The notes: generated by a model from the letters alone, not told the origin. Positions 35,547-54,075 are shown, numbered from the stretch's first letter. The stretch: 64,000 bases of DNA from Sulfuriroseicoccus oceanibius (GCF_010681825.2 NZ_CP066776.1:1364001-1428000), one strand, 5' to 3'. Numbers and translations: made by a program.

Positions 35547-35557
35547 CGGAGGATCTC

Positions 35558-36067: not shown

Positions 36068-37385
36068 TCTCGAAAAGATCCTTGAGGAACGGGCGACGGA
36101 CGACAGGGCGTTGGTAGGTGAAGGATTCCACCCCGAAGCGTCCGCGGTAACGTCCATGACCGCTGGCTCCGACACCACCGAAGGGAAGGTTCAGATTGCC
36201 ACTTTGTTTCATGGTGTCGTTGATGCACACGCTTCCCGAGCGGATGGCGTGGGTCAGCTCGCGAGTGAACGATTTGTCGCTGGAGAAAAGATAGAGCGCG
36301 AGCGGGCTGGTGAATTTACGCAGGCGGGTGATGAGCTCGTTGCGGTTGCTGAATTTAACGATAGGCAGCACTGGTCCGAAGATTTCCTCGTTCAGCGCCG
36401 GGTCACTCCATTGGGCATCGGGTAGCAAACGCGGTGCGATGCGCAGGGCGTCAGCGTCATCGGATTCGAAGCAAACTTCGGTGCCGGTGATGAGCGATTG
36501 GATGCGGTCGTAGTGGCGGCGGTTGATAATGTGCGCCATCTCCTGATGCCATGGGGTGGTGCGGAGGAGCTCGGTCATGGCGGCCACCAGCTCAGCGTGT
36601 GCGTTTTCATGCACCGCGACGAAGTCTGGAGCGAAGCAGGTTTGGCCGCCGTTGAAGAACTTTCCAATCAGAATGCGGCGTGCGGTTTGCTCGATGTCGG
36701 TGTGCTCATCGACGACCACCGGGCACTTGCCACCAAGCTCCAGAATGCAGGGGGTGAGATGGGCGGCGGCTTGTTGGGCCACGATGCGGCCGACTTCCGT
36801 GCTGCCGGTGAAGAAGATGAAGTCGAAGGGTTGGGCAAGAAGCTCACGTGAGGTCGATGCGTCACCCGTGATGACTGTGGCGTGCGCTGGATCGAAGGTG
36901 TCGGCGATGAGTTTGGTGAGCAGTTGCTCCGATGGGGGGGCGAGCTCTGATGGTTTGAGGATGACCGTGTTGCCGGCGGCGATGGCGGAGATGAGTGGAG
37001 CGATCGATAGTTGGATCGGGTAGTTCCACGGAGCAATGATCAACGTGACTCCGAATGGATCGCGCTGGATGGAGGCGCGGGACGGGTGAAAGTGCAGCGG
37101 AGTGCGGGCCCGTCCGGGTTTGACCCACTTGGCGAGCTTGCGGGTGACGAGGCGGATCTCTTCGAGCAGGAAGTGGTACTCCGCGACGTGGGCTTCGAGT
37201 TCCGGTTTTCCTAGGTCCTGGTGCAATGCATCGATCAGCGCATCGCGGTTCGCGATGAGGTTTTTCTCCAACAAATTGAGCGCATTGATTCGCTGCTGCA
37301 GCGGCAAGGTGTTACCCGATTCGAAGTACGCCTTGTGCTGTGTAATCGACCGAATGATCTGGTCCTGTGATGTGTGTGAATCCAT
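36015..37385 (-). CDS. aldH: Aldehyde dehydrogenase, AldH type (carotenoid aldehyde to acid)
   Basis: 456 residues from ATG 37385. Class 3-like aldehyde dehydrogenase with the NAD(P)-binding segment VTLIIAPWNYPIQLSIAPL, FFTGSTEVGR, the general-base motif ELGGKCPVV and the catalytic Cys in FNGGQTCFAPD. In staphyloxanthin synthesis AldH oxidises 4,4'-diaponeurosporenal to the carboxylic acid; the surrounding crtN, crtP, crtQ and crtO genes make that the likely role. A general fatty-aldehyde role is possible. It is on the opposite strand from the rest of the cluster and divergent from crtP (84 bp between the starts). Confidence 0.85.
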   Translation of the reverse strand: MDSHTSQDQIIRSITQHKAYFESGNTLPLQQRINALNLLEKNLIANRDALIDALHQDLGKPELEAHVAEYHFLLEEIRLVTRKLAKWVKPGRARTPLHFHPSRASIQRDPFGVTLIIAPWNYPIQLSIAPLISAIAAGNTVILKPSELAPPSEQLLTKLIADTFDPAHATVITGDASTSRELLAQPFDFIFFTGSTEVGRIVAQQAAAHLTPCILELGGKCPVVVDEHTDIEQTARRILIGKFFNGGQTCFAPDFVAVHENAHAELVAAMTELLRTTPWHQEMAHIINRRHYDRIQSLITGTEVCFESDDADALRIAPRLLPDAQWSDPALNEEIFGPVLPIVKFSNRNELITRLRKFTSPLALYLFSSDKSFTRELTHAIRSGSVCINDTMKQSGNLNLPFGGVGASGHGRYRGRFGVESFTYQRPVVRRPFLKDLFEIIPPYAEKLPMIRRFLK

Positions 37386-37469
37386 AACGCTAAGAGGGGC
37401 GTAGAACGGAAGCGTGATTGCGTTGGCTATCATGTCCCCGATGCCTCGAAAAAAGGAAGGAATGAAACG

Positions 37470-38975
37470 ATGAAAAGAACGACAGTGTCAGTGATTGGTG
37501 CGGGGCTTGGAGGCTTGTCTGCTGCGATTTCCTTGAAAGCGGCAGGGTACGACGTGGCGGTCTATGAGAAGAACGCGCGGATTGGAGGGAAGCTCAACTT
37601 GCTGGAGAAGGACGAATATACATTTGATCTAGGGCCGTCGATTTTCACGTTGCCGCAGTTCTTCCGGGATTTGTTTGAGAGGGCGGGGCGCAACATGGAC
37701 GACTATGTGCAGTTGGAGAAAGTCACGCCGCATTGGCGGAACTTTTTCGAGGACGGGTTCGTCTTCGACCTTTACGAAGAGGACGAGCGGATGCGTCAGG
37801 AGTTTACCTCCAAGCTCAATGGCAGCGGGGAGAAGGCGTGGCAGGAGTACCAGCGCTTTTTGGAGTACGCCCGCCAGCAGTACGACATCGTGGACGAAGG
37901 CTATTTCCGGCACGGATTGGACAACTTGTGGGAGTTCTTGAGGTATTACGGGCTGCGGCGCTTGGGTAAGGAGATCGACTACAAGCGCTCGATGGCGGAG
38001 TCGATTGCGGACTACTTCTCCGACCCGCGGATGCGGAGCATTTTCGAGTACTTTATCAAGTATGTGGGGTCGTCGGCTCTGGATGCTCCGGGATACATGA
38101 ACCTGATGCCGGTGATCCAGGTGGACTACGGGCTTTGGTATGTGAAGGGGGGGATGTATGCGCTGGCCGAGGGGCTTGGAAAGCTGATGGAGGAGATGGA
38201 GATTCCGGTGCACCTCAATGCCGATGTGGCGAAGATCAACCGCGAAGGGAAAACGGTGACCGGCTTGACCTTGGTGGATGGCACGGTGGTGTCATCGGAT
38301 CTGGTGGTGAGCAACATGGAGGTTGTCCCAACCTATGATCGCTTGCTCGGTGAGAGCCCGCGTTTCCTCAAGCGCTTGGAGAAGTTCGCTCCGGCGTGTT
38401 CCGGGATTGTGATCCATTTGGGGACCAACAAAGAGTTCCCGCAGTTGGCGCATCACAACTTTTTCTTCTCCAACAACCAGCACAAGCACTTCAAGACGGT
38501 GTTCCACGACGGGCGCTTGCCTGAGGATCCGACATTGTATGTCGTCGCTCCTACCCGCACCGATCCAAGCAAGGCACCTGAGGGTTGCGACAACATCAAG
38601 ATCCTGCCACACATCCCGCCGATCGATCCGGAGAACCCAGTGAGCCACGCAGAGTACCTCGCGTTGCGTGATCGGGTGATCGACAAGATGGAGCGCAGTG
38701 GAATCACCGGGCTGCGCGACAGCGTGGTGACCGAGGATTTTCTCACGCCCGTCGATATCGAGCAAATGTACCGTTCCAACCGTGGGTCGATCTACGGAGT
38801 GGTCTCTGATTGGAAGAAGAACCATGGGTTCAAGGCACCGAAGACCAGCCGCAAGTACCGCAATTTGTACTTCTGCGGCGGGAGCACCAACCCGGGCGGT
38901 GGAATGCCGATGGTCGTGCTTTCCGGGCAAAAAGTAGCCGACCGCATCATCGCAAAGCATCCAGCTTCATGCTGA
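37470..38975 (+). CDS. crtP: CrtP-like C30 carotenoid terminal oxidase
   Basis: 501 residues. FAD-binding motif VSVIGAGLGGLSAAISLKAA at the start. Many segments follow 4,4'-diaponeurosporene oxidase of Staphylococcus: FDLGPSIFTLPQFF, FIKYVGSSALDAPGYM, GLWYVKGGMYALAEGLGKL, NMEVVPTYDRLL, LAHHNFFFSNN, ILPHIPPIDPE, and YRSNRGSIYGVVSDWKKNHG. It would oxidise the terminal methyl of the C30 chain to an aldehyde. It shares more with CrtP than the first desaturase of the cluster does, which is why the two are given different names. The stop codon overlaps the start of crtQ by 7 bp. Confidence 0.92.
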   Translation: MKRTTVSVIGAGLGGLSAAISLKAAGYDVAVYEKNARIGGKLNLLEKDEYTFDLGPSIFTLPQFFRDLFERAGRNMDDYVQLEKVTPHWRNFFEDGFVFDLYEEDERMRQEFTSKLNGSGEKAWQEYQRFLEYARQQYDIVDEGYFRHGLDNLWEFLRYYGLRRLGKEIDYKRSMAESIADYFSDPRMRSIFEYFIKYVGSSALDAPGYMNLMPVIQVDYGLWYVKGGMYALAEGLGKLMEEMEIPVHLNADVAKINREGKTVTGLTLVDGTVVSSDLVVSNMEVVPTYDRLLGESPRFLKRLEKFAPACSGIVIHLGTNKEFPQLAHHNFFFSNNQHKHFKTVFHDGRLPEDPTLYVVAPTRTDPSKAPEGCDNIKILPHIPPIDPENPVSHAEYLALRDRVIDKMERSGITGLRDSVVTEDFLTPVDIEQMYRSNRGSIYGVVSDWKKNHGFKAPKTSRKYRNLYFCGGSTNPGGGMPMVVLSGQKVADRIIAKHPASC

Positions 38976-40060
38976 TCCTACTTCCCATCCTGGCGATCAT
39001 CTGTGCACCTGCTTTGTGGCTGGTGCTGGGACGACCACGCTTTTTGGCGAAGGTTGGCAGTGACGAAGAGGCGACGATCAAAGTGTCGGTCGTCATTCCC
39101 GCGCGGGATGAGGAGATCAATATCGGGGCATTGTTGGATAGCCTGAACGCGCAAACCCGGCCGGCGCATGAAGTGATCGTTGTCGATGACGGTTCCAGCG
39201 ACCGGACGGCTGAGATCGCCCGTGAAAAGGGGGCGAGGGTGATCAGTGGAAAGGAGTTGCCAGATGGCTGGAATGGCAAGCCTTGGGCCTGCACTCAGGG
39301 AGCGGAGGCTGCTACGGGAGATTGGTATTTGTTTCTCGATGCGGACACGCGGCTGGCGCCGGACGCTTTGTCGAAGTTGGTCGGTGCTGCTTGGCGCAAT
39401 GGAGGTGCTGTGTCTGTCTGTCCGCACCATCAGGTGGAGCAGCCGTACGAGGAGTTGTCCGTGTTTTTCAACGTGATGATGCTGGCGGGGGTGAACGCAT
39501 TTGGGTTTTGTGAAGAGGAGGCGTGTGCGTTGTTCGGCCAGTGCTTGTTAATTTCGGCGGAGGATTATGAGTTGGTGGGGGGGCACGAGTCGGTGAAGGG
39601 GAAAGTGTTGGAGAACTTTTATCTGGCGGACCAGTTGAGCCGTTGTGGTGTGGCGCGTGAGTGTTATGTCGGGCTTCGGGCGGTGTGGATGAGGATGTTT
39701 CCTGAAGGGTTCGACCAGCTGTACTCAAGCTGGATGAAAGGGTTTGCTGCTGGAGCCGGGCATGCGGCGGCGCGTGCGATTGTATTTTCTTCGATCTGGC
39801 TGACTGGTGCGATGCTGGCAATGGTCGGGCTTTTCATTGCGCCGTTCGTCGGGGTGACATGCGCGGCGCTTTGTGTGACGACCTATCTACTCTATGTCGG
39901 GCAATGTTTGTGGGTCTTCCGGTTGGCAGGATCATTCTCGCAGTGGAATGCGTGGCTGTTCCCGATCAGTCTGCTTTTCTATCAGTGGACGTTTTTCTCT
40001 GCACTGAGGGCGCACAAGCAGGGGCGGAAGGTGAAGTGGAAAGGTAGGGAGGTCGGTTGA
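38969..40060 (+). CDS. crtQ: CrtQ-like carotenoic acid glycosyltransferase (GT2)
   Basis: 363 residues. One N-terminal membrane segment (LILLPILAIICAPALWLVL) precedes a GT-A family 2 domain: KVSVVIPARDEEINIGALLDSL, EVIVVDDGSSDRT, DGWNGKPWACTQGA and the DxD in YLFLDADTRLAP. Three hydrophobic segments lie near the C-terminus (about residues 275-345). It would attach glucose or another sugar to the C30 carotenoic acid as an ester at the inner membrane. It overlaps crtP (7 bp) and crtO (4 bp, ATGA), showing a tightly coupled three-gene block. Confidence 0.93.
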   Translation: MLILLPILAIICAPALWLVLGRPRFLAKVGSDEEATIKVSVVIPARDEEINIGALLDSLNAQTRPAHEVIVVDDGSSDRTAEIAREKGARVISGKELPDGWNGKPWACTQGAEAATGDWYLFLDADTRLAPDALSKLVGAAWRNGGAVSVCPHHQVEQPYEELSVFFNVMMLAGVNAFGFCEEEACALFGQCLLISAEDYELVGGHESVKGKVLENFYLADQLSRCGVARECYVGLRAVWMRMFPEGFDQLYSSWMKGFAAGAGHAAARAIVFSSIWLTGAMLAMVGLFIAPFVGVTCAALCVTTYLLYVGQCLWVFRLAGSFSQWNAWLFPISLLFYQWTFFSALRAHKQGRKVKWKGREVG

Positions 40061-40542
40061 TGATCGATCTCCCCTTGTGGTTGGTGGCGGTGATCAACTG
40101 CGTCGGGATCCCGCTGGTGCATTTGTTTTTTGCGTGGTCGGCGTTGGGACGTCCGGCGGATGCATTTGATCCGGAATCCCCGTGGTACCGCGAGCGGAAG
40201 TGGGAGGCGGGAGGTGCTTTCTATCAACGCTGGTTTCGGGTGCGTTCGTGGAAATCCAAGCTTCCTGACGGGGCGGCATGGTTCAAAGGCATGGGCAAGG
40301 CCAAGTTGGAGTCGACCGATTCGGATTATCTTCAAGCGTTCCTCGTGGAGACGTGCCGCGGCGAGTGGTCGCATTGGCTGCAATTGTTTGTGATCAGTGG
40401 GTTCGTTGTGTGGAACCCATGGCCGGCGAACCTGGTGATCGTGATCTACGCGGCGGTCTCCAACTTGCCCTGCATCATCAATCTACGCCACGTGCGGGTG
40501 CGGATGCGGCGGGTGGGGCGGCGGTCAGCCAATCGCGGGTGA
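40057..40542 (+). CDS. crtO: CrtO-like glycosyl-carotenoate acyltransferase
   Basis: 161 residues with an N-terminal membrane segment (LWLVAVINCVGIPLVHLFFAW) and two more near the C-terminus. The family pattern is clear: WYRERKWEAGGAFYQRWFRV, RSWKSKLPDGAAWFKGMGK, YLQAFLVETCRGEWSHWLQL and IVIYAAVSNLPCIINLRHVRVRM. It closely follows staphylococcal CrtO, which esterifies the sugar of the glycosylated carotenoid with a fatty acid. As the last gene of the block it would complete a staphyloxanthin-like glycolipid pigment. An R element begins about 60 bp downstream. Confidence 0.93.
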   Translation: MMIDLPLWLVAVINCVGIPLVHLFFAWSALGRPADAFDPESPWYRERKWEAGGAFYQRWFRVRSWKSKLPDGAAWFKGMGKAKLESTDSDYLQAFLVETCRGEWSHWLQLFVISGFVVWNPWPANLVIVIYAAVSNLPCIINLRHVRVRMRRVGRRSANRG

Positions 40543-40601: not shown

Positions 40602-40815
40602 TCTGAATGTTACTGACCTAAGGCATACCGCCGTGTCGGGAGCGGCCGACGGGTGGGTGCTGCGCCTTGGCAGTATCGTCGGCTTGGCCGGGGTTGCTTC
40701 GGGGCGGGATATCCCAGGGTGAGGTCGCCTGAGGCTCCCGTCACCCCGGGCTGGTTCGCGGCACCCCTCCGGGGAGGAATTAGCGATGCGGGACTTTGTT
40801 CAGTGTCACTCTTTG
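40602..40815. repeat. R element, copy R3
   Basis: Left terminal gaatgttactgacctaagg, core blocks gtgtcgggagcggcc and gtcgcctgaggctcccgtcacc, right terminal reading aagagtgacactgaac on the opposite strand. More diverged than R1 and R2. The stop codon (40806-40808) of the giant ATPase gene lies inside its right terminus. Confidence 0.7.
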
Positions 40816-43800
40816 GTGTCGTCGCTTGCTGGCGGGTCTCCCTGGGTGACCTTTGGCTCGATGTCGATTGGCGGCTTGGCGCTGCGCGAGGATTTCTCCA
40901 TGTCGGTGATGGTCGGGTCATCGTCGTCGTCGCCGGAGGTCGGGACGAGGTTGATGTCGACTTTGACGGGCACTGCGCGCAGTCCTTCGATGAGGGCTTT
41001 GAGTTGGGCCAGGGTTTCGCGTTCCAGTGTTTGCGGGCTGGACTTGGCGGCGGCGGCCTGGGCGATCCCGAGCTGGATGGCGTTGAGTCCGTCGTTGAAC
41101 TCACTCATTTGAGCGACCACGCGGGCGACGGGGTCGTTTTCTCCGCCGGCTCCGAGGAGTTTGTTTTTGTTAAAGCCCTTTTTGATTTCGGCCCAGCGGG
41201 CGGCCTGGGTTTCCGTCAGCATGTTTTCCATCTCGCGGAACTTGAGCATGTTGGACTCGGCGCCGGTGGTGAGTGTTTGGCTTTCGTTTTCGTAGTGGTC
41301 GGTGATGAGTCCTACGACCTCCTCGTCGGTCATGAGCGGCAGCACTTTTTCGGCGATGCGGTTCATGTTTCGGTATGAGCCCTGGAGTTTGAAGGCGGGT
41401 TCCGTGCGGTAGGCGTCTTCCTGAGCCGCGCTGCGGATGTACTCGAGGTTTACGCGGAGGATGGAATCGCGAACGCGGGAGAGGTGTTGGACGACGCGTA
41501 CCATTTCGTCGATTTCGGCGGGCGTGTAATTGCCTTCGAAATCGATGCCTTCCTGGCTTCCGGTGTCGGCGATGCGCATGATGGCGTAAACGTCTTTCTG
41601 CGACCGGCTGGAGAGCTTGTTGAGGATTGGGTTCGAGGTCAGTGCGTTCTCGATGTAGGACGCTTTGAAGTCATTGGCGTGGCCGCCGATGATGTCGCCG
41701 AGGTTGTAGGTATCGGCGCGGTTGGCGAGCATGTCCGGGATTTGGAACTTGCCGCCGGTTTCGGTGTATGGATTGCCGGCCATGACGACGGCGACCTTCT
41801 TGCCGCGGAGGTCGTAGGTGCGCGCCTTGCCTTGGTAGACACCCTCGATTTTGCGTTGGGCGTCACAGAGTGAGATGAACTTCTGCAGGAACTCCGAGTG
41901 GGTGTGCTGGATGTCATCGAGGTAGATCATCACGTTGTCACCCATCTCTAGTGCCAAGTTGAGTTTGATGACCTCCTCACGGGCAGCGGCATTCGGAGCT
42001 TCGGCAGGGTCGAGCGAGACGACATTGTGGCCGAGCGCCGGGCCGTTGATCTTCATGAAGGTCAAGCCCAGGCGGTTGGCGACGTATTCCATCAGTGTGG
42101 TTTTGCCGTATCCCGGAGGCGAGATCAGCAGTAACAGCCCCATGCGATCGGTACGGGTGTCCTTGCCGGCGGTGCCGAGTTGTTTGGCGAGGTTGTCGCC
42201 GACAATTGGCAGGAAGACATTGTTGAGCAGTTTGTTGCGGACGAACGCGCTCATCACCTTTGGTTCGAACTCGGAGAGCCTCATCTCCTCGCGCTTTTCC
42301 TCCACCAGTCGTTGTTTGAGTTCCTGATAGGCTTGGAAGGTCGGGACGCCTACGCGCTCGAAGTTCTCCATCCGGTCGCGGAACGCATTGTAGTCCAGCT
42401 GATAGGCCCCTGCGTTCACGACGTCGTGGTCACCAATCAGTCCGTCGATTTGAACTCTGGTACGGACTTGGTGGATGTCGCGCAGGTCGAATCCGCCACG
42501 GGTCAAATGGGCTGCGGCCTCGGCGATCACTGCAGCGGGGATTTCGGCGTCGTCTTGTGAGCGGGCGAAACCGGCAAGCCAGTCCTTGAGCGTGGTGAAG
42601 CGGTCCAGAGGGAGCTCAATGTCCTGCAGGCTTTCGTCAAAGCTGGCCTCAGCGTGTTTGACGACCAGTTGGTGTTTGAACTTTTTGACCAACTCGGCGG
42701 CGTCGGGGGAGACGATGAAGTGCTCGTTGCGAGCGAGCTCCTCGAACAAGTAAAGCGCTGCGGAATCCGGGCGTGCGGTGTGGAATGCACGCGTGCCAGT
42801 CCACTCCGAGATCGCGGATTCAAGAGGTCCGACCAGGGTGTGGCGTTCACTGGAGTTGTCACCGAAGATCTCGCGGCGTTTTGCGTAGGCTTGGATTTGG
42901 CGGGCGAGTGTGGATTTCTCATCGCCGTGCCAGCTGAGCCAGAAAACCTGGGCGAGTGCACGGGTTTCCGGGCTGAAGCGAAGCAGCCCGATCTTGCCGT
43001 GGATAGGGATGATGGCCTCCAGCAATTTGTGGGCATCGAGATCATGCACGCCCTTGGTGTAGTTCTCCGCGTAGCGTGGCTGCATGAACTTTTGAACCGC
43101 AGGCAGCAAGCCGTTGGCGAGCAACTCCTCCAGCTCGTCCATGCGGTGGTTTTTGAGAAATTCCCACGCCAGAAACTCGGCGCGGTAGACTTCGTCGTTC
43201 TCTGAAACGACTTCCTGTTGCCAGACATCGCGGGTGGCGAGGAATGCCTCATCGCGGATCGGCTCGAAGAAGTCGGTGCCTGCCAGGTGGAAGCACATTT
43301 CCTCGTCCTGCGGGACAATGGTCAGCTGCAGCGGCTGGGTGTTGACGTTGAACTGATGCTTGCCAAAGCGCAGCACGTTGGTGCCATCGACGAAGAGCTC
43401 ATTGCGGTCCTTGAGCGCGCGCACCGCATCCTCGCGGATGGTCTTGAGGCGGGTCTGGATGTCGTCGGCTTTGACACTGTCGCCGAGCTCGGTGAGCTGG
43501 GTGATGATGTCGCGGACCTTTTCGATCATCAAGTCATCGGCGAAGTAGCCGTTGATCTCGTTGATCTCTTTGAAATTGGAGATCCGGTTGTCGATACCGG
43601 CGAGCACCCGTTGCGCGGACTTGACCAGTGTGTTGACGCGTTTGTTTCTGGTTTCGAGGAGCTGCTGTTTTCGTCCCTCGAACGCATTGTAGACTTCCTC
43701 GCGTTTGGCGGAGAGTTCCTCGACGTAGTCGTCGAACTCGGAGAAGCGTCCTTCGAGTTCTTCGATCTGGACCATGACCTTGGTCAGGTACTCTTCGGTC

Positions 43801-45926
43801 TTTTCGGGAGTGTCGCAGAGATCGAGGTAGTTGACGACGGCTTGCCCGAGAAGCTTGAGTTGAGCGCCGAACTGCGCCACCGCTTCGCCCTGGGCGAGCG
43901 ACTTGCGCTTGTTCTTCAGTTCGGCTTTGGCCCCATTGAGAACGCTGTAGATGTCCGAGATGCTCTCGATGATCGTGGTCGTCTGGGTGGAATCCTCGAT
44001 CTTGAGGTTCGATACGACGTCGATGAGCATTTCGAGTTCCTGCCCGGTGGCGCTGATCGCTTCGCCGAGCTCCTCGGCTTCGGTCACCTTGCCGAGTTGC
44101 TCCAAGACCTTGCGATGCTCGTCGACTTGGGCTCGGTAGGGATCGAGAGCTTCGGGTTGGAGCAGGAATGCGACGGTCTTTTCGGAAACCGAGTCGGCGG
44201 TCGTAGCGATGGATTCCTCCAAGCCATCCACGCGCTCCAGATCCATGTAGCGCATCTCGCGCAGGCCGATGACTTCTCCGCGAAGTGCGCGCAGGCCCGC
44301 GAGTTGGCGGACAAACCCGAGGATGTCATCCGGCGGTGAATTTTCCGCGGCCCGGACTTGTTTGCCCGTGCGCTCGGTGAGGTCTTCGATCCGTTCTGCC
44401 GCGCTGTTGCGCAGTCGTTGGACTTTGTCGAATTCGGAAATAGCCGATTCCGCGGCTTGTTTGATGCCGGCGATTGGTTTGGCCAGGGCACCCGCTTCTT
44501 CCTGTTCGATCCAGAAATAGCTGTCGAGCAAGTCGCCGGAGAGCTTTGCCAGATCGATGTAGAGTCCGGCGTAGTTGTCGTCCTTGTGCAGCAGGGTGAT
44601 CAGCTCACGGCATTCAGCCATGGCTCGGACGAGCTCGGCGTTGCCGATTTTGAAAAGATAGCTGTCCTGGGACTGCTGTTGGGAGATGACGGCGTCGTCC
44701 GAGAGGATCGGCGTTTGCCAGACCTGGATGACGTGGTGTTTTTGTGCTTCGAGCTCTGTTTTGAAATAGAGCAGCTCACCGTTATCGAAGATGGAGTAAC
44801 CATTGCAAACCACAGGCGGCTGCACATTGCGCTCAATCAGGTTGTAGTTGAGCAGGACGTAGTCGCCGGAGGTTCGGTTGTAGAAGGCGTATAAGGTGTC
44901 CTCGCCGTTTGCGGAGCTGATTTTGCGCTCGAAGCGCATGTGCTCCAGCCCGTGGTCGAAGGTTTTGAGCTCGCCGCTCAGGAGATAGTAGCCATTGGCG
45001 AAGATGATGCCGTGGTCGTCGGGGAGCAGTACACAGGATTCGCCGATGGCGTCGATGCGGTTCACCGATTGTGTCTTCTCGTTAAAAACGAGGTAGCGAA
45101 CCTTTTCTTCGCGGTAGGGGAGGATCTTGAGAAGGATCAGCGGCCCGACGATGGCGTACTCGATTTCCGCGTCGTCCAAGGTTTGATCGTGATCCTCGAC
45201 GGGTTCTTGATAGATACCCAGCCCATCGGTGGTGTTGTCTTCGACTTTGATCGTGAGGTCACCGCCGACGGTTTCGACGAAGACGCGGTCCTCGATGCTG
45301 AGGTGAGGGTGTTCGCCGGGGCGCTGCATGTCGCGCGTTGCGCGTTGCCAGGTGAACTCGTGTTGGTCGGGGAAAGTGTATTCGTGATCCGAGCGGTTGC
45401 CCTGATATTCCAGAGTACCGTCACTCTTGATCAGGAATTTGAAGGTCTTGATGTCGTCGATGCTCTTGCCGACTCGAAGCGCCAGATAGAGAACCGGCCC
45501 CTTTCGCATGAACTTGGCGAAAACGGTCTCACGGTAATATTTGTAGAGGTAGGCGAAGTCCTCGCGGAACGAGCGGCTGTCGATGACCTCATCCAAGCTG
45601 AGCTTGTGGAAGGTATGGTCGCTGGGCTCGTAGCGGTAGGCGTCGAAAACGTCTTCGGGGTCGGTCGTTTGTTTGAGGCCGAACTGAATGTTGTAGCCGA
45701 AGAAGAAGCGGTTGTTGCCGATCGAGATCATGTCCCGCGGCGTGCAGTTGTGCTCGGTGGTGATCCGCTCGGTGGAAACGAGCGCGCTCTCTACGGCGCC
45801 GAAGATGTCCTTGCGTTGTGTGTTGAGCGCATCGAGCCGCTGGCCCAGATCCTCGGACTGGGTGAGCAAGCGTGCGCGGATCACTTCGTAGGCGCCGCCT
45901 TCGAGTTGTTTGGAGTCTTCGGACAT
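40806..45926 (-). CDS. Giant AAA+ ATPase (DNA repair ATPase/DUF3686-like)
   Basis: 1706 residues. Residues 1-430 are a beta-rich repeat region (RDMISIGNNRFFFGYNIQFGLKQTT..., SGDYVLLNYNLIERNVQPP). About 490-850 is long coiled coil (EDLTERTGKQVRAAENS, KNKRKSLAQGEAVAQFG). A helical part (about 880-1240) leads to an AAA+ module. In it Walker A PPGYGK lies at 1270-1275, Walker B VMIYLDDIQ near 1331, and the sensor-like VAVVMAGNPYTETGGKF follows. The arrangement matches proteins annotated 'DNA repair ATPase', whose role is unproven. The flotillin and YqiJ-like genes lie upstream on the same strand, with a decayed R repeat between. An acidic C-terminus ends inside R3. Confidence 0.75.
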   Translation of the reverse strand: MSEDSKQLEGGAYEVIRARLLTQSEDLGQRLDALNTQRKDIFGAVESALVSTERITTEHNCTPRDMISIGNNRFFFGYNIQFGLKQTTDPEDVFDAYRYEPSDHTFHKLSLDEVIDSRSFREDFAYLYKYYRETVFAKFMRKGPVLYLALRVGKSIDDIKTFKFLIKSDGTLEYQGNRSDHEYTFPDQHEFTWQRATRDMQRPGEHPHLSIEDRVFVETVGGDLTIKVEDNTTDGLGIYQEPVEDHDQTLDDAEIEYAIVGPLILLKILPYREEKVRYLVFNEKTQSVNRIDAIGESCVLLPDDHGIIFANGYYLLSGELKTFDHGLEHMRFERKISSANGEDTLYAFYNRTSGDYVLLNYNLIERNVQPPVVCNGYSIFDNGELLYFKTELEAQKHHVIQVWQTPILSDDAVISQQQSQDSYLFKIGNAELVRAMAECRELITLLHKDDNYAGLYIDLAKLSGDLLDSYFWIEQEEAGALAKPIAGIKQAAESAISEFDKVQRLRNSAAERIEDLTERTGKQVRAAENSPPDDILGFVRQLAGLRALRGEVIGLREMRYMDLERVDGLEESIATTADSVSEKTVAFLLQPEALDPYRAQVDEHRKVLEQLGKVTEAEELGEAISATGQELEMLIDVVSNLKIEDSTQTTTIIESISDIYSVLNGAKAELKNKRKSLAQGEAVAQFGAQLKLLGQAVVNYLDLCDTPEKTEEYLTKVMVQIEELEGRFSEFDDYVEELSAKREEVYNAFEGRKQQLLETRNKRVNTLVKSAQRVLAGIDNRISNFKEINEINGYFADDLMIEKVRDIITQLTELGDSVKADDIQTRLKTIREDAVRALKDRNELFVDGTNVLRFGKHQFNVNTQPLQLTIVPQDEEMCFHLAGTDFFEPIRDEAFLATRDVWQQEVVSENDEVYRAEFLAWEFLKNHRMDELEELLANGLLPAVQKFMQPRYAENYTKGVHDLDAHKLLEAIIPIHGKIGLLRFSPETRALAQVFWLSWHGDEKSTLARQIQAYAKRREIFGDNSSERHTLVGPLESAISEWTGTRAFHTARPDSAALYLFEELARNEHFIVSPDAAELVKKFKHQLVVKHAEASFDESLQDIELPLDRFTTLKDWLAGFARSQDDAEIPAAVIAEAAAHLTRGGFDLRDIHQVRTRVQIDGLIGDHDVVNAGAYQLDYNAFRDRMENFERVGVPTFQAYQELKQRLVEEKREEMRLSEFEPKVMSAFVRNKLLNNVFLPIVGDNLAKQLGTAGKDTRTDRMGLLLLISPPGYGKTTLMEYVANRLGLTFMKINGPALGHNVVSLDPAEAPNAAAREEVIKLNLALEMGDNVMIYLDDIQHTHSEFLQKFISLCDAQRKIEGVYQGKARTYDLRGKKVAVVMAGNPYTETGGKFQIPDMLANRADTYNLGDIIGGHANDFKASYIENALTSNPILNKLSSRSQKDVYAIMRIADTGSQEGIDFEGNYTPAEIDEMVRVVQHLSRVRDSILRVNLEYIRSAAQEDAYRTEPAFKLQGSYRNMNRIAEKVLPLMTDEEVVGLITDHYENESQTLTTGAESNMLKFREMENMLTETQAARWAEIKKGFNKNKLLGAGGENDPVARVVAQMSEFNDGLNAIQLGIAQAAAAKSSPQTLERETLAQLKALIEGLRAVPVKVDINLVPTSGDDDDDPTITDMEKSSRSAKPPIDIEPKVTQGDPPASDDTKE

Positions 45927-45934
45927 GGAGAGTA

Positions 45935-46125
45935 ATGGGCGTATCGCAGGGGGGCGCGCTGGTGCTCAGCGGCCAGATCTGATGTGCCGTGCGGAATGGA
46001 CGGGCATCAGGTGGTTTCTGCGCATCGGCGGCATCGCATGCTCGGCCGATTGGTCTGGTCTGCTAGCCCGGGGTGAAGTCGCATCATGCGCTTTTCACCC
46101 CAGGCTGATTTCTGTCGCCATTAAG
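45935..46125. repeat. Decayed R element, copy R6
   Basis: Weak similarity to the R family (catcggcggcatcgcatgctcggccgattgg and gggtgaagtcgcatcatgcg parallel the core of R4). The termini are not convincing. It fills the gap between the flotillin stop codon and the ATPase start codon. Confidence 0.4.
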
Positions 46126-46198
46126 GCATGTGCAGCCTGTGAATCCAGTTCGGAAAAACAGGGCGGCCTATTCTCAAATGGGGAACAGGTCTCGGTTA

Positions 46199-48271
46199 TC
46201 AGTTCATCAGTGAGCTGACCTTTTGGTCGGCCAGGCCGAAGCGCTTGGCAGAACCAAGCAGGCCAATGATCTTGTCGCGGGTTTCCCCTTCGGCTTGTGG
46301 GATCATTTTGCCCAACACACCGGCGATGCTGAGGTTCTTGAGGTCCTCGCTTTCGATGCCGAAGTCGTCGATCCACTGGCTGAGCTGGCTCTTGAAGTAG
46401 TCAGGGTCGCCATTGAAGAACGTCTCTTTGATGTCCGAGATGGTGTAGGAGTTGTCGACGATGCGGTCGACCACCTTGCCCTGGGTAACAGCGTTGGTGA
46501 TACGGTCGAAGAACTGAGTCTCGCCACCGACGATATCGATCTTGGCTTGTTTGAGCGCTTCGCCCACGACGATGGCCTGTTGTTCGGCAATCTGGCGCTG
46601 GACGTCGATCTGAGCCAGGTCGATGGCCTTTTCCTTCTCCAGCTTGAGCTTGAACTCTTCGTGCTCCTGACCGGCTTCTTCGAAGAGCTTCATCGCTGCA
46701 GCCTTTTGCTCGATGCCCTTGGCTTCCGCTTCGAACTTCAGCGCATCGACTTCGGCTTGGGCGGCGCCTTCCTTCTGCAGGGCGTCGGCTCCTGCGAGCT
46801 TCACCTCGACGAGACCGAGGCCTTCGGCGGCAGTTTCCTTGGCGACGGCTTCGGCGAGCATCTTCTTGGCGTTGGCCTCTTTCTCGCTGGCGGTGAGTTC
46901 GGCCTCGGCGAGGATAATGCGTTCCTCCGACTGCAGTTCGCTGGCAGCCTTGCTGGCGGATGCTGCTTTTTCGACCATGTAGGCCTCTTCGTCGGCCTTG
47001 AGCTGGGCGGCCTGGCGGCGTGCTTCGGCTTCCTTGACCTGGGTGATGAGCTTTTCCTGAGCCTCGGCTTCGGCCAAAGTGACTTTGACCTGCTTCTCAC
47101 GGTCGGCACCGGCAAATGCTTCGGTGTCTTTGATCTTTTCCTGCTCGATGACCACGGTCTTTTCGAGGGCCACGCGGTCTTTGATGACTTCTTGAATGTT
47201 CTTCTTCTCGACCTCGACGGCTTTCTCCTTCTCGATCGCCTTCAGTTCGGTCACGCGCATGCGCTCGATCTCTTCGAGTTGGCGTTCGCGTTCGACGCGT
47301 TCCAGTTCCACTCCATCGGTACGTTCCTTGTTGCGCAGGGCGACGAGGATCTGGCGCTGTTTGTTTTCCTCGGCGATCTGGATTTCCTCTTCGGCGCGGA
47401 TGCGGGCGTTTTCGGCCTTCTGGCGTTCCTCTTCGCGGACGCGGGCGGTTTCGGCCTCTTCGCGGTACTGGACGATCTCGACTTCGCGCTTTTGTTTGGC
47501 TTCGGTTTCTGCCAGTTGACGCTCCAGTTCGAGGATGGCCTCGCGGGCTTCGACGTCTTGCTGGGTAATGACCTTTTCCTTATCCCTCTGGATGTTGTTG
47601 GCGAGCTTTGCCTGTGCGGCGGTGAGGTCGGTGATTTTCTTGATGCCTTCGGCGTCGAGAATGTTATTGGCGTCGAGTGCTTCGAGCGGGGTTTGCTCGA
47701 GGTAATCGATTGCGGCGTCGTCGAGGATAAAGCCGTTCAGGTCTTTGCCGATGACCTGAAGGATGTCGTCGCGGAAGGTATCGCGTTCTTCGTAGAGTTC
47801 GACGAAATCGAAGCGCTTACCGACGGTCTTCAGGGCTTCAGAGAACTTGGCGTCGAAGAGCGCACGGATTTCCTCTTCGGATGAGGCGCGGTCACAGCCG
47901 ATGGATTCGGCAACCCGCAGCACGTCTTCCATGACGTTGTTCACGCGGACGAAGAACACGACCTTGATATCGGCACGCATGTTGTCCTTACAGATCAGGC
48001 CGTTCTTGCCTGTTCGGTCGATCTCGATGCGTTTGACCGAGATGTCCATTGGGTCGGCTCGGTTGAGCAAAGGGATCACCAAGCCGCCATTGAAGATGAC
48101 CTTGGTTTTTGGGAAGCCGGTGACTACCAATGCGGTGCCCTTTTCCACCTTGCGGTAGAACGACGTGAAAATGTAGAGCAGGGCGAATACGGAGGCCGCC
48201 GAGATGGCGATGGTGACCAGGAGCGCCGCGGTGCCGGTCAATCCCAGGAGGGCGAGGGTGGACAGAGTCAT
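46199..48271 (-). CDS. Flotillin-family SPFH protein (YqiK-like)
   Basis: 690 residues from ATG 48271. An N-terminal membrane segment (about 8-38) is followed by an SPFH/Band-7 domain (about 40-225: YRKVEKGTALVVTGFPKTKVIFNGG, MDISVKRIEIDRTGKNGL). A very long charged coiled coil rich in Ala, Glu and Lys comes next (about 230-560), then a compact C-terminal part (VVDRIVDNSYTISDIKETFF...). Flotillins form membrane cages or lipid domains. A YqiJ/NfeD-like gene lies 14 bp upstream, the usual partner order. The giant AAA+ ATPase gene follows downstream on the same strand. Confidence 0.9.
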   Translation of the reverse strand: MTLSTLALLGLTGTAALLVTIAISAASVFALLYIFTSFYRKVEKGTALVVTGFPKTKVIFNGGLVIPLLNRADPMDISVKRIEIDRTGKNGLICKDNMRADIKVVFFVRVNNVMEDVLRVAESIGCDRASSEEEIRALFDAKFSEALKTVGKRFDFVELYEERDTFRDDILQVIGKDLNGFILDDAAIDYLEQTPLEALDANNILDAEGIKKITDLTAAQAKLANNIQRDKEKVITQQDVEAREAILELERQLAETEAKQKREVEIVQYREEAETARVREEERQKAENARIRAEEEIQIAEENKQRQILVALRNKERTDGVELERVERERQLEEIERMRVTELKAIEKEKAVEVEKKNIQEVIKDRVALEKTVVIEQEKIKDTEAFAGADREKQVKVTLAEAEAQEKLITQVKEAEARRQAAQLKADEEAYMVEKAASASKAASELQSEERIILAEAELTASEKEANAKKMLAEAVAKETAAEGLGLVEVKLAGADALQKEGAAQAEVDALKFEAEAKGIEQKAAAMKLFEEAGQEHEEFKLKLEKEKAIDLAQIDVQRQIAEQQAIVVGEALKQAKIDIVGGETQFFDRITNAVTQGKVVDRIVDNSYTISDIKETFFNGDPDYFKSQLSQWIDDFGIESEDLKNLSIAGVLGKMIPQAEGETRDKIIGLLGSAKRFGLADQKVSSLMN

Positions 48272-48285
48272 GGGTGTGTTTGTGT

Positions 48286-48918
48286 TTAGTTGGGTGGGTT
48301 CTGGATGGGGTGGACCGTGTACAGTCCGGATTGTTGGTCGTAGGAGACGACTTTGATCGTCTCGCCGCGTGGGATCTCGCCCTCGGGGCAAATGCAATTG
48401 ATGCTGGCCGGTGCGCCTTCCTTGCGGGCGACTTCGGCTTGTCCGTAGGCGGCATCGACCTTGCGGCTGATGACGACACCGGTTTGTCCCAGGATGGGTT
48501 CGACGATTTCCGATTCTCTGAGTTTGCGGAAAAATGGAGCCAGCGGCCAGGTGATGAGTTTGGCGGCTGGGATTGCGATCAGAGACGAGATCCCCAGAAT
48601 GATCCATCCTGTGCGGTTGTCTGCTTCGGGGTTGAAGAGATCGTTGCCAGTGATGGAGAAGAACCAAGTGCAAATGGCCAGGAACGTGGCGATGCCGGTC
48701 AATGGAACCGAACCGCCGTTGAGGAACTTAATGATCCCACTCAATGGACCCAGGCTGGCCAGGTTCGTGCCGCCGTCGGCATCCATGTCGATATCGACGT
48801 CCAGCGCATCCAAGCCCACCCCGAAGAACGAGACGATCCAGTAGAGCAGGATCATGCCCAGAAAGACCGAGATCGCCAGATTGTAGGGCTGTGAGAGATG
48901 GTGGAGGAACTCTTGCAT
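48286..48918 (-). CDS. YqiJ/NfeD-like membrane protein with OB-fold tail
   Basis: 210 residues. Membrane segments lie at about 14-36 (AISVFLGMILLYWIVSFFGVG), 75-92 and 105-130. A C-terminal OB-fold-like domain follows (EPILGQTGVVISRKVDAAYGQAEVARKEG, GETIKVVSYDQQSGLYTVHPI). Proteins of this class pair with flotillins and are thought to help place or stabilise them. The flotillin gene starts 14 bp downstream, so the two are co-translated. An acidic loop after the first helix (DALDVDIDMDADGG) is typical of YqiJ relatives. Confidence 0.85.
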   Translation of the reverse strand: MQEFLHHLSQPYNLAISVFLGMILLYWIVSFFGVGLDALDVDIDMDADGGTNLASLGPLSGIIKFLNGGSVPLTGIATFLAICTWFFSITGNDLFNPEADNRTGWIILGISSLIAIPAAKLITWPLAPFFRKLRESEIVEPILGQTGVVISRKVDAAYGQAEVARKEGAPASINCICPEGEIPRGETIKVVSYDQQSGLYTVHPIQNPPN

Positions 48919-49278: not shown

Positions 49279-52200
49279 ATGAATACACGGTTTTCCTTGT
49301 CTTGGTCCAAGTCACTGCTGGGTAGGTCTTTTTCTTACATTAATACAGCGGTGCTTTGTTGGTGTGTGGCTGGTGGTGCGGCTTGGGGGGCTGGTTCGGT
49401 TGTTGTTAATGAATTTCATTACAATTCGAAGGATAACTCGAGTCTTGAGGAGTTTGTGGAGTTGTACAATCCGGGGGATGCCGCTTACGACTTGAGTGGG
49501 CATCGGCTGGATGATGCGGTGTTTTATGAGTTTCCTGAGGGGACGGTTTTGCCGGCGGGCGGGTATTTGGTGGTGGCGCAACAGCCGCAAGTTCTGGAGG
49601 CAAAGTATGGAATTACCGGCGTTCTCGGGCCGTGGTCGGGCAAGCTTTCTTCGGGCGGAGAGGAGATCGAGGTTCGTAACGCGCTGGATACCAAAGTGGA
49701 CAGTGTGAAGTATCGGGCGGGCTTTCCATGGCCGACGATGGCCGATGGCGCTGGCCCGTCCGCGGAGTTGATCCATCCGTTGCTGGACAACGGCTTGGGT
49801 TCGTCGTGGCGCTCCAGTGTGCCCGGGGAGGAAGTCGCGTACCTGCCTGGAATGGCGTCAGGATGGCGTTATTTCAGGGGGATTGATCAGGCTCCAAGTG
49901 CGGGTTCGCAGTGGAGGGATCCATTATTTGACGATAGTTCGTGGGAAATTGGGCAGGCTGGATTCGGCTATGGGTACGATACTGGTAACAACACCTCTCT
50001 GGAGGATATGTACCAGAGTTATACATCAGTCTATTTGCGACGATCGTTTACGATTGATGGTGGTTCTGTGCCGACGTCGATGAAGTTGCGTATGCGTGTG
50101 GATGACGGGTGTGTGGTGTGGATCAATGGTCAGGAAGTGGCGCGCTTTCACGTGCCCGATGGCGAGCTGGGGTATGATTCTGCGGCGATCAACCATGAAC
50201 GCGAGGAGGAGGAGATTACCCTTCTTGGTACGGACTCGTATCTGGTGGCGGGAACCAACGTGGTGGCGGTACACGCACTCAATACCCGGGTCGGTAGTAG
50301 TGACATGGCGTTTGATATGTCGCTGAGTTCGACTGGTGCGGAAGAATTTCCAGCTAGTCCTGGGGCGGCGAACCGGACAAGCATCGCGCTCGCGGATGCG
50401 CCGCCATCGGTGACATCTGTGAGTCATGCACCGGCCAGTCCGACGACAGGTGAGCCGGTGGAGATTGCGGCGGCGATTTCAGATGAGGATGGGATGGGCG
50501 CGGTGCGTCTTGAATGGCAGCAGGTGGATCCTGGGAGTTATATCCGTCTGACCGACGCTGCATACGAGACATCCTGGCAAAGTGTTCCGATGACTGACGG
50601 CGGGGATGGGGTTTACCGTGCGAGCTTACCGGGGGAACTGCAGACCCATCGGCGACTGATGCGTTACAGGATTGTGGCGACCGATGCGCTGGGTAACGAA
50701 CAACGGTTTCCTTACGAGGACGACGAGCAGCCAAACTTTGCGTACTTCGTTTATGATGGGGTTCCTGAGTGGACCGGTGCGCTTCGGCCTACGGCGTATG
50801 CGGGAGCGGACGCGACGGAGGCGGTCACTTATGGTGTGGATGTGATGGCGTCCATGCCGGCGATTCATTTGATAGCGGACTCAGGGGATGTGACCAATTC
50901 CCAGTATAATGCGAGTTTCCACAAGGTGAGGTTCCGCGGAACCCTGATCCAAAAGGGTGTGGTTTATGATCACGTTGAGTTCCGTAACCGAGGTCAGGCT
51001 TCCACGTATGTGAGTGGCAAAAACAAGTGGAAGATCTACTTCAATCGGGCCCGGGATTATCAGGCATATGATAACTACGGTCGGCCATATCGTGAAACTT
51101 GGAATGAGTTGCCAATCAATGCCAATGCGAGCCCATGGGCGGCAATCAACCGTGGGTCGGCCGGAGTGGAAGAAACCTCAAGCCACCGTCTTTATGCGCT
51201 GGGCGGCATGGCTGCGCTCAACACCCAGTACTTCCAGTTTCGCGTGATTGACGATGTGTCCGAGCAGGGTGCCGATCAATACAGTGGTGACCTGTGGGGA
51301 TTGTATATGGGGTTTGAGCCGACCGAGGGGAACTTTATCGATGAGCATGACCTGCAGGATGGGAACCTATATTCCATTGAGGGGAACGAAGGCGACAAAG
51401 AGCGGCAGGGGCCTCCGCCAGCTACTGCGGACGACTCTGATTGGGTCGCGTTCCGCGATGGGTTGGCGCAAAGTGGCCAAACAGAGCAGTGGTACCGTGA
51501 TCACGTGGATCTCGACATATTGTACACGTTCCTTGCGATCAACCGGCTGATTGGCAATGTGGATGTGCGTCCTGGTGATAACTATCGTTTCTATCACCGG
51601 CCGAGTGACGGGCGGTGGGTGATCATCGCGTACGATTTGGACATGATGTACATTCCGGCCCACCACTGGGGCGGGACGATGGACGGAGTGGTGGTGGCTG
51701 GAGCTCCCAATGTGTTCCGGGCGATCATGAGGCATCCGGAGATTGCGCGGGAATACCGCAACCGTTGCCGTGAGATCCTTTCGTTGGTGGGATCTGATAG
51801 TGGCGCGGCAGGAGGGCAGATTGGGCAGTTGATTGCAGAGTATGCGTCGTTTGTGAACCCGGTGGGGCAGGAGAAAACGTGGGCCGACATTGATGCTGCA
51901 ATGTGGAACCTTCATCCGAGAACCGAGGGTAACGGGGCGAACTCCGGGCAAAGCAGTCACAAGGGGAACTTCTACCGTGCGGTTTACCACGATAGCCGTG
52001 GTGGTCTGGGGGGAACCTTGTCGAGTGCCTGGACCCGCACTCTGGTGGATGCGGACAGCGATGGGTTTTCCGACCATGAAGGCATGATGCGTTACTTTGT
52101 CGAATACTCGACCAATGCGTGGGACGGTGGGTTCTGGTCCAGACTGGCGGTGAACGGCGTCGATCCTGATCCTGACCGTCAGCTAGGTTATGGGTACCAA

Positions 52201-53580
52201 TATCTTCAGTTTGAGGCGAACTATGGAGGGTGGGGCGACGCGAACAACAATCCGGGAGAGGAGGCTCTGCATGATGATTTTCCGCAGAAGCCGACCATCA
52301 GTGCGCTGAACCCAAGTTTCCCAGTGGACGATCTGGCATTCCGTTGCTCCGCCTTTGCGGATCCGGATGGCGCGCAGACGCATGCGGCGACTCAGTGGAG
52401 GATTGCGCAAATCAGTGCGCCTGGTGTGCCGGGCTTTGTGGCGGGTGAGCCATGGAAATACGAGCTGGATGCGACCTGGACGTCGCCGGAGATCGCAGCG
52501 GGAACGAGTGAGTTCAAGTTTCCACTGGGCCTGGCATCGGCGGGGAACCGCTACCGCGTGCGTGTCCGGCATCAAGACAACTCGGGCAATTGGTCGTACT
52601 GGTCCGAGCCGATTACTTTCGATGCGGTGGCGGCGGCGCCTTACACGCTGCTGCACTACTGGAACTTCAACAACTCGGACGAGGCTCCGGCATTCTCCAT
52701 GCTCGGAGGATCGGAGTCGGCGGCGGGGGCTGTGGTGTACGATGACGGCGGGGACTTCGCTGCATTGAATGCGCGCAATGGCGACTCTGCTGGTATGCAT
52801 CAGCGGGTGAATAGTCCGCTGACCCCAGGCACGGAGCTGCGCTTTGACCTCCCAACGCGAGGCTTCGGGGATGTTCTGATCCAATATGAGGCGCGCCGAT
52901 CCGGCTCGGGAGCTGGCATTCAACTCGTTGATTATACGGTGGATGGCGGGGAGTCGTGGCAACGTCACTCTGAGGTATCAGTTGCGGATATTGATGGTGA
53001 GGCGGTGCCGGTGATCCCTCTGGATTTCAGTAGAACTCCAGGGGCGGTGGACAATCCGCGGTTTGGGATCCGCATCACGTTTTTGCAGGGCAGTGGCGGT
53101 ACTGCGGGTAACAACCGCTTTGACAACCTGACAGTGGAAGGACGCCCGGTGGTGCCCGATTTCGAGGCGTGGAGAAGCCGGCAGTTCAGCGTCGATGAGC
53201 TGGAGGATGAGTCGATTTCAGGCGGGGATGCCGATCCGACGGGGGCGGGGATGACGAACCTGATGCGTCATGCTGCCGGTCTCGGGAGGGATGATGCGGT
53301 TACTGATGATAACGGCTACTCATTGATTCAACGCATCGATCCCGATGATGCGCCGGTGTATCGGTTCCGCTACAACCCAGCTGCGACTGATCTTCGGTGG
53401 AAGGTAGAAGCCGGAGCGGTGCCTGGATCGTGGACTCACGTGCTTTTTGACTCGGAGCTGACGCCAGCGCCGACGATGAAGGATGGGTGGGTTGAGATTG
53501 TGTTGCCGGACTCGTTGGACGGAGGGAGTGTGCGTGATCCGCGGATGTTCGTTCGTCTGCAGATTTTGTCGACGCCGTGA
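49279..53580 (+). CDS. Large secreted CotH-kinase/lamin-tail-domain protein
   Basis: 1433 residues. A signal peptide lies near residues 15-38. A lamin-tail domain follows (VVVNEFHYNSKDNSSLEEFVELYNPGD to about 165), then a jelly-roll-like domain (about 190-365). A CotH kinase-like domain comes next (about 540-880: FRNRGQASTYVSGKNKWKIYF, LWGLYMGFEP and the metal-site-like WVIIAYDLDMMYIP). Two or three beta-sandwich domains complete it. CotH kinases phosphorylate secreted proteins using extracellular ATP in Bacillus; here the substrate is unknown. There is no PEP-CTERM or other sorting tail, so it is probably released or bound by its beta domains. It is a single unit ending before an R element. 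Confidence 0.85.
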   Translation: MNTRFSLSWSKSLLGRSFSYINTAVLCWCVAGGAAWGAGSVVVNEFHYNSKDNSSLEEFVELYNPGDAAYDLSGHRLDDAVFYEFPEGTVLPAGGYLVVAQQPQVLEAKYGITGVLGPWSGKLSSGGEEIEVRNALDTKVDSVKYRAGFPWPTMADGAGPSAELIHPLLDNGLGSSWRSSVPGEEVAYLPGMASGWRYFRGIDQAPSAGSQWRDPLFDDSSWEIGQAGFGYGYDTGNNTSLEDMYQSYTSVYLRRSFTIDGGSVPTSMKLRMRVDDGCVVWINGQEVARFHVPDGELGYDSAAINHEREEEEITLLGTDSYLVAGTNVVAVHALNTRVGSSDMAFDMSLSSTGAEEFPASPGAANRTSIALADAPPSVTSVSHAPASPTTGEPVEIAAAISDEDGMGAVRLEWQQVDPGSYIRLTDAAYETSWQSVPMTDGGDGVYRASLPGELQTHRRLMRYRIVATDALGNEQRFPYEDDEQPNFAYFVYDGVPEWTGALRPTAYAGADATEAVTYGVDVMASMPAIHLIADSGDVTNSQYNASFHKVRFRGTLIQKGVVYDHVEFRNRGQASTYVSGKNKWKIYFNRARDYQAYDNYGRPYRETWNELPINANASPWAAINRGSAGVEETSSHRLYALGGMAALNTQYFQFRVIDDVSEQGADQYSGDLWGLYMGFEPTEGNFIDEHDLQDGNLYSIEGNEGDKERQGPPPATADDSDWVAFRDGLAQSGQTEQWYRDHVDLDILYTFLAINRLIGNVDVRPGDNYRFYHRPSDGRWVIIAYDLDMMYIPAHHWGGTMDGVVVAGAPNVFRAIMRHPEIAREYRNRCREILSLVGSDSGAAGGQIGQLIAEYASFVNPVGQEKTWADIDAAMWNLHPRTEGNGANSGQSSHKGNFYRAVYHDSRGGLGGTLSSAWTRTLVDADSDGFSDHEGMMRYFVEYSTNAWDGGFWSRLAVNGVDPDPDRQLGYGYQYLQFEANYGGWGDANNNPGEEALHDDFPQKPTISALNPSFPVDDLAFRCSAFADPDGAQTHAATQWRIAQISAPGVPGFVAGEPWKYELDATWTSPEIAAGTSEFKFPLGLASAGNRYRVRVRHQDNSGNWSYWSEPITFDAVAAAPYTLLHYWNFNNSDEAPAFSMLGGSESAAGAVVYDDGGDFAALNARNGDSAGMHQRVNSPLTPGTELRFDLPTRGFGDVLIQYEARRSGSGAGIQLVDYTVDGGESWQRHSEVSVADIDGEAVPVIPLDFSRTPGAVDNPRFGIRITFLQGSGGTAGNNRFDNLTVEGRPVVPDFEAWRSRQFSVDELEDESISGGDADPTGAGMTNLMRHAAGLGRDDAVTDDNGYSLIQRIDPDDAPVYRFRYNPAATDLRWKVEAGAVPGSWTHVLFDSELTPAPTMKDGWVEIVLPDSLDGGSVRDPRMFVRLQILSTP

Positions 53581-53845: not shown

Positions 53846-54075
53846 TGCCCCATAAAAAAACATGTTCATGTTTTGTGGGGGCGGGGACGTGACCTAGCGC
53901 ATGGGACTGCTGCGGGCATTTTCCACGGCGGTTGCTATGCGTCCACCGCCCCAATTGCCGGATGTCTTTAGGTAGTCGTCTGGTCGTTCGTATCTCGGCT
54001 GGCTTTATAGCTCGGCGGATATGGGTAGGGGCGGAGGGAATTGGAAAACGACCAAGAACAAAACCCGACAACGTT

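Follow-up and report, generated by a model that had tools for sequence, protein, structure and literature searches.

Co-inheritance of a YqiK-type flotillin and a giant AAA+ ATPase, and their association with PspA: a candidate membrane-remodelling module

A 64,000-nucleotide stretch of the Sulfuriroseicoccus oceanibius genome (hereafter the window) carries adjacent genes for a YqiJ-like membrane protein, a YqiK-type flotillin and a giant soluble AAA+ ATPase. We found that the flotillin and the ATPase are co-inherited, with near-obligate co-occurrence in three separate samples of genomes, and that the stress protein PspA, the ESCRT-III-like phage-shock protein, tracks the pair even where its gene is unlinked. 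These findings are consistent with the idea that the trio is a flotillin-scaffolded AAA+ remodelling module of a PspA-type envelope-stress response, a reading to which we assign a probability of roughly 0.55.

The locus and its three proteins

The S. oceanibius genome is a single contig of 3.50 Mb. The three reading frames of the trio lie on one strand, in the order and at the coordinates given by a preliminary description of the window (Table 1). The YqiJ and flotillin genes are separated by 14 bp. The gap before the ATPase gene is 272 bp, compared with a median of 87 bp in other genomes, and contains a strong hairpin, so co-transcription of the ATPase gene with the other two is likely but not certain. 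GC-rich intergenic hairpins flank the ATPase gene on both sides, at 40742-40754 (+) and 46063-46075 (-), with the exact half-site CACCCCGGGCTNG in both, and resemble copies of a palindromic repeat of intergenic regions. No convincing sigma-54 site was found ahead of the YqiJ gene, and a sigma-70 promoter search at the locus returned one weak site on the opposite strand, the number expected by chance.

Table 1. Features of the trio, in window coordinates
Feature	Position	Strand	Basis and remarks
YqiJ-like (NfeD2-type) inner-membrane protein	48286..48918	-	ORF, 210 aa; three predicted membrane segments and an NfeD-like C-terminal part
YqiK-type flotillin (SPFH)	46199..48271	-	690 aa from the ATG at 48271; a single membrane segment at the N-terminus; long coiled-coil region
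Flotillin-ATPase intergenic gap	45927..46198	-	272 bp; strong GC-rich hairpin, no T-run; fold z-score -3.3
Giant soluble AAA+ ATPase, DUF3686 / 'DNA repair ATPase'	40806..45926	-	1706 aa
ATPase residues 26-471, DUF3686, predicted beta-propeller	44514..45851	-	Pfam span; AlphaFold2 pLDDT 88
ATPase residues 482-845, predicted helical/coiled-coil arm including DUF7902 (592-676)	43392..44483	-	AlphaFold2 secondary structure; Pfam
ATPase residues about 1215-1605, predicted single AAA+ module	41112..42284	-	Pfam AAA; AlphaFold2 and Foldseek

Downstream of the trio, a gene run converges on it. Positions 33439-40542 encode two flavin amine-oxidase (desaturase-like) proteins, an aldehyde dehydrogenase, a family-2 glycosyltransferase and a CrtO acyltransferase, which together look like a diaponeurosporenoate/staphyloxanthin-type carotenoid pathway. 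Upstream lies a divergent CotH/lamin-tail gene (49279-53580), whose 1433-aa product combines a lamin-tail domain with a CotH-kinase domain; the gene after it encodes a PEP-CTERM protein (53962-54906). Several other Verrucomicrobiota carry a gene of a ~125-aa family between flotillin and ATPase (L028:5905-6327, L034:8272-8661, L035:10160-10603, L060:5112-5564 and L061:2233-2658); this family is absent from the window's gap. In one Bacteroidetes genome (L116:5959-14881), the YqiJ-flotillin pair and the ATPase gene are transcribed divergently instead of in one direction.

The first protein is probably of the multi-TM YqiJ/YuaF type, an assignment that is weak for the window's protein and clear for members of its family: Pfam YqiJ_N and NfeD match the former at E 0.0032 and a sub-threshold 0.12, and the latter at up to 1.8e-9 and 6.8e-4. 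Hydropathy places hydrophobic segments at residues 11-41, 71-89 and 104-124, in agreement with the membrane part of the preliminary description; the OB-fold that it also named is weakly suggested by these family matches. A sequence search of solved structures gave no match for this protein. The second protein has one N-terminal membrane segment, and a profile of its family matches Escherichia coli YqiK at 6e-60, which points to a YqiK homologue of the membrane SPFH type. Pfam reported no domain in it, its NCBIfam FloT match fell under the cut-off, and the solved-structure search returned QmcA only, weakly. It is the only flotillin of YqiK type in the genome.

The DUF3686 ATPase is likewise present in a single copy. 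Its Pfam matches are to DUF3686 (E 6.4e-184), DUF7902 (3.8e-27) and AAA (7.7e-7, residues 1265-1310), and hydropathy detected no membrane segment in it; the YqiJ-like protein has three and the flotillin one. Two AlphaFold2 models, one of residues 1-845 and one of residues 820-1650, were each built from ~70 aligned relatives; both have a mean pLDDT of 88 and bear out the beta-repeat, coiled-coil and AAA+ parts previously described for it. Many beta-propellers are among the closest solved folds of the N-terminal model (Sec12, YCF48, the clathrin terminal domain and others), so that the predicted relationship is to a fold class and not to one specific relative; long helices follow the propeller in the model. 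For the AAA+ part, Foldseek placed NorQ, RuvB, CbbQ and MCM closest, at E about 1e-5 to 1e-4. NorQ and CbbQ stand near the top of the list with RuvB and MCM scoring almost equally, in what is a comparison of folds and not a phylogeny of AAA+ clades. Two strands between the post-Walker-B helix and the next core strand resemble, in the model, that AAA+ superclade's pre-sensor-1 hairpin. The motifs comprise Walker A SPPGYGKTT (K1275), Walker B LDDI (D1337/D1338), sensor 1 N1385, R1403 and sensor 2 R1519. The Walker B pair is Asp-Asp where Asp-Glu is usual. The residues K1275, D1337, D1338, N1385, R1403 and R1519 are identical in 73 of 73 aligned ATPases, and an active enzyme is accordingly to be expected on sequence grounds.

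Databases label the protein 'ATPase involved in DNA repair'; on that reading it would lie beside the flotillin pair by chance. A sequence search of solved structures does return RuvB, weakly and as the only match. However, this match covers the P-loop region alone, no DNA-binding domain was found in the ATPase, and inheritance with a membrane flotillin is near perfect, as described below. We regard a DNA-repair function as scarcely credible. No protease domain was found in the protein, and our literature search found no paper on 'DUF3686'.

Co-inheritance of flotillin and ATPase

We counted the two families in 637 genomes from three samples: 289 Verrucomicrobiota, 199 Flavobacteriaceae (the family of an Aquimarina) and 149 members of the family of a Rhodopirellula. 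Both were present in 130 genomes, the ATPase alone in 7, the flotillin alone in 1 and neither in 499. The preliminary description, which had proposed a co-occurrence count, held that its idea would fail if the ATPase occurred mostly apart from the flotillin; these numbers show the opposite. Among the Verrucomicrobiota, the ATPase was found in 27 of 289 genomes and the flotillin, at the cut-off of E 1e-60 used for the main count, in 26, all 26 shared (Fisher p 4e-36, relatedness ignored); by genus, the same 16 of 153 carry both. The Flavobacteriaceae had 19/199 and 18/199, with 18 in common, and the Rhodopirellula family 91/149 and 87/149, with 86 in common. The five ATPase-only cases in this last family are matches that lie near a contig start or are partial, and its flotillin-only case, the only one in the study, is a 124-residue fragment. 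Relaxing the Verrucomicrobiota cut-off to E 1e-25, for weaker YqiK matches, added five genomes with an E. coli-like YqiK that scores 150-174 bits, compared with at least 600 for the main set, and these five are without the ATPase. In several genomes flotillin and ATPase lie on different contigs or far apart, indicating that the link between them is not solely physical.

The genes are nevertheless usually neighbors. The trio is adjacent in 22 of the 27 Verrucomicrobiota genomes that carry the ATPase. From 80 named loci we used for linkage counts the 62 with at least 3.5 kb of sequence upstream of the ATPase; among these, a flotillin gene was present in 60/62 and a YqiJ gene in 56/62. Loci with flotillin and ATPase occur in Verrucomicrobiota, Planctomycetota, Bacteroidota, Bacillota, Thermodesulfobacteriota, Chlorobiota, Kiritimatiellota, Lentisphaerota, Myxococcota and Pseudomonadota; the closest relatives of the window's ATPase are from Verrucomicrobiota, for example an uncultured Rubritalea at 68% identity. 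Trees of the two proteins from 88 loci have 43 of 62-64 supported splits in common and a distance correlation of 0.75, while 10 flotillin splits contradict the ATPase tree, which argues that the two have mostly, but not always, traveled together. A control set of 14 genomes contained no DUF3686.

The ATPase is encoded in 12 records of a plasmid collection, some of them chromosome-sized. This plasmid occurrence and the patchy distribution would suit a dedicated anti-phage defense system; the preliminary description had named phage and toxins among the possible targets. However, no record in a phage collection encodes the ATPase, and PADLOC gave no convincing match for any protein of the trio. 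Among 140 neighboring proteins, PADLOC found no recurrent defense family beyond a generic HTH model (4 members), the other matches shown being single, in a count that has no random baseline. PspA operons respond to membrane damage in general, so induction of such an operon by phage would not be specific. The upregulation of PA3728-PA3732 during phage infection of Pseudomonas aeruginosa (PMC12041424), part of an operon discussed below, bears on a phage role only indirectly. A defense system of this kind is very unlikely, and we found nothing in support of the suggested role against toxins.

Association with PspA and related operons

Ravi et al. 2024 (PMC11237479) described operons that combine CesT/Tir-PspA with a band-7/flotillin protein, an AAA+ protein with coiled coil and beta-propeller, and YqiJ/YuaF, together with a PspA-less 'abbreviated' form, and proposed chaperone-like or ESCRT-like roles. 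The window's trio has the same three proteins with identical domain architecture, down to the predicted N-terminal beta-propeller and coiled coil of the ATPase, and is a further instance of the abbreviated form, from which none of the features compared sets it apart. It differs from the full form in that no CesT/Tir-PspA dyad is in the operon. The arrangement is already published. What the present counts add is the quantified near-obligate partnership of flotillin and ATPase and the unlinked association with PspA. We found no functional test of a YqiJ-flotillin-ATPase operon in the literature.

In the Verrucomicrobiota sample, PspA (E 1e-5 or better) was detected in 18 of the 27 genomes with the ATPase and in 15 of the 262 without it (Fisher p 2e-13, kinship unmodelled); by genus, the figures are 11/16 and 9/137. 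The association is statistical and holds even where the genes are unlinked. The window genome's one PspA gene lies about 0.48 Mb from the trio, in a locus (G000:C1:922000-931000; L140:4176-13130) that also encodes DUF350, a K+ channel with an RCK domain, a CesT-like protein, AdoMet decarboxylase and an AAA+ ATPase of its own, and that resembles the polyamine-linked PspA operons of PMC11237479. Across the 62 named loci, PspA is linked in 18 and a CesT-like gene in 17, mainly in Bacteroidota, where the PspA-linked loci often have a divergent gene for a LexA/XRE-like regulator. On two plasmids, pQBR103 and one from Hymenobacter, PspA, YqiJ, flotillin and ATPase stand in a single run, which in pQBR103 reads YjfI, PspA, rhomboid, DUF2491, DUF350, DUF1190, glutathionylspermidine-synthase-like, a YqiJ-matching hypothetical protein, SPFH and ATPase.

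PspA is also found near the flotillin in the five Verrucomicrobiota genomes that lack the ATPase (L188:7543-11532, L189:4455-8301, L191:8192-10302, L190:8747-12973 and L187:8512-11013), at a distance of at most about 1.1 kb; three of them have a recognizable YqiJ gene between the two, and one more has it next to the flotillin. This indicates that PspA accompanies YqiJ-YqiK generally and that the giant ATPase marks one subtype. A conserved ~171-aa protein (SGRISQQDYDF...) often precedes PspA or YqiJ-YqiK in these ATPase-less loci.

The YqiJ/YqiK pair was described by Hinderhofer et al. 2009 (PMC2636767). E. coli YqiJ-YqiK and Bacillus subtilis YuaF-YuaG (FloT) have, as in the window, a gene for an NfeD2-type protein followed by one for a flotillin; unlike in the window, no ATPase gene stands alongside E. 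coli YqiJ-YqiK. In B. subtilis, the SPFH protein YdjI recruits PspA to the membrane (PMC8581546). The P. aeruginosa bacABCDEF genes, PA3732-PA3727 (PMC2587700, PMC10948618), are co-transcribed, and a sigma-54 site has been proposed for them (PMC10948618). BacB is PspA-like, BacC (PA14_16160) a short homologue of NfeD and BacD (PA14_16180) the SPFH protein PaFlo3 (PMC13086221); the gene after PaFlo3, PA14_16190/PA3728, is labelled 'ATPase' (PMC8190622) and appears in lists of genes that were mutated in several studies of cystic fibrosis (PMC8190622, PMC4199492). With PspA, short NfeD, SPFH and 'ATPase' in succession, bacABCDEF is very probably an instance of the flotillin-ATPase system, with PspA and the CesT-like BacA inside the operon in contrast to the window. 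From its position and published label, and not from its sequence, bacE (PA3728) would be the giant ATPase.

A proposed mechanism and what it would mean

From these observations we infer physical contact, an oligomeric state, clients and a remodelling activity for the trio, as follows. The YqiJ-like protein and the flotillin would build an SPFH scaffold bound to the membrane at its cytoplasmic side. The soluble ATPase would dock on this scaffold, with the beta-propeller and the coiled-coil arm as probable contacts, and the AAA+ ring would spend ATP on remodelling or extracting proteins at that patch of membrane. The likeliest clients would be assemblies of the ESCRT-III-like PspA family, together with membrane complexes that have been damaged. 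By analogy, HflK/HflC-FtsH also joins an SPFH scaffold to an AAA+ motor; FtsH, however, is a protease, whereas the window's ATPase is soluble, has no detected protease domain and combines a predicted beta-propeller with a MoxR/RuvB-like AAA+ module. The membrane-bound remodelling machine for stress guessed at in the preliminary description fits the co-occurrence, the linkage of the trio in ten phyla and the PspA association. Against the PspA-response reading, PspA went undetected in 9 of the 27 Verrucomicrobiota genomes with the ATPase, the window genome's PspA sits in another operon with its own AAA+ protein, YqiK flotillins without the ATPase exist in E. coli and in the five Verrucomicrobiota genomes, where PspA is again near the flotillin, and the closest AAA+ folds to the ATPase resemble MoxR and RuvB more than Vps4.

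The genomes without detected PspA would be accounted for by a PspA-free quality control of membrane proteins, in which the flotillin would confine unfolded membrane proteins for the ATPase to unfold or disaggregate, much as HflK/C-FtsH minus the protease. NorQ and CbbQ, MoxR-type AAA+ proteins and among the closest solved folds to the ATPase, are remodelling chaperones, which favors such a function; they are small and have VWA partners, whereas the window's protein has about 1200 residues before its AAA+ module and a flotillin partner. In addition, flotillin microdomains of Staphylococcus aureus stabilize unfolded proteins (PMC11222466). Against quality control stand the strength of the PspA association and the many lineages whose operon itself includes PspA; we rank this reading first among the rivals but consider it unlikely overall.

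Second in rank is the possibility that the ATPase mainly assembles and disassembles the flotillin cage itself, as scaffold turnover with no separate client. The partnership of flotillin and ATPase persists where PspA is absent or unlinked, and in the examples read the ATPase-linked flotillins run to 643-731 aa, more than the 553 of E. coli YqiK and the 579-603 of ATPase-less relatives with clear starts. However, E. coli-type YqiK needs no such ATPase, and we judge cage turnover improbable. Phage defense and DNA repair follow, in that order. Within the preferred reading of a PspA-type stress module, a more specific and doubtful proposal is that the ATPase serves as the flotillin's motor: a soluble, propeller-armed AAA+ ring in or on the cage that takes apart PspA/ESCRT-III-like polymers at the membrane, as a bacterial Vps4 counterpart that comes from another AAA+ clade, the MoxR/RuvB type.

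Flotillins are widespread and their role is largely obscure; a near-exclusive ATPase partner focuses the problem on a single partner with a single activity. A protein annotated misleadingly as a 'DNA repair ATPase' now has a candidate membrane-stress function that is open to test. For PspA membrane-repair systems, many of which have no obvious AAA+ partner, the ATPase offers a candidate motor.
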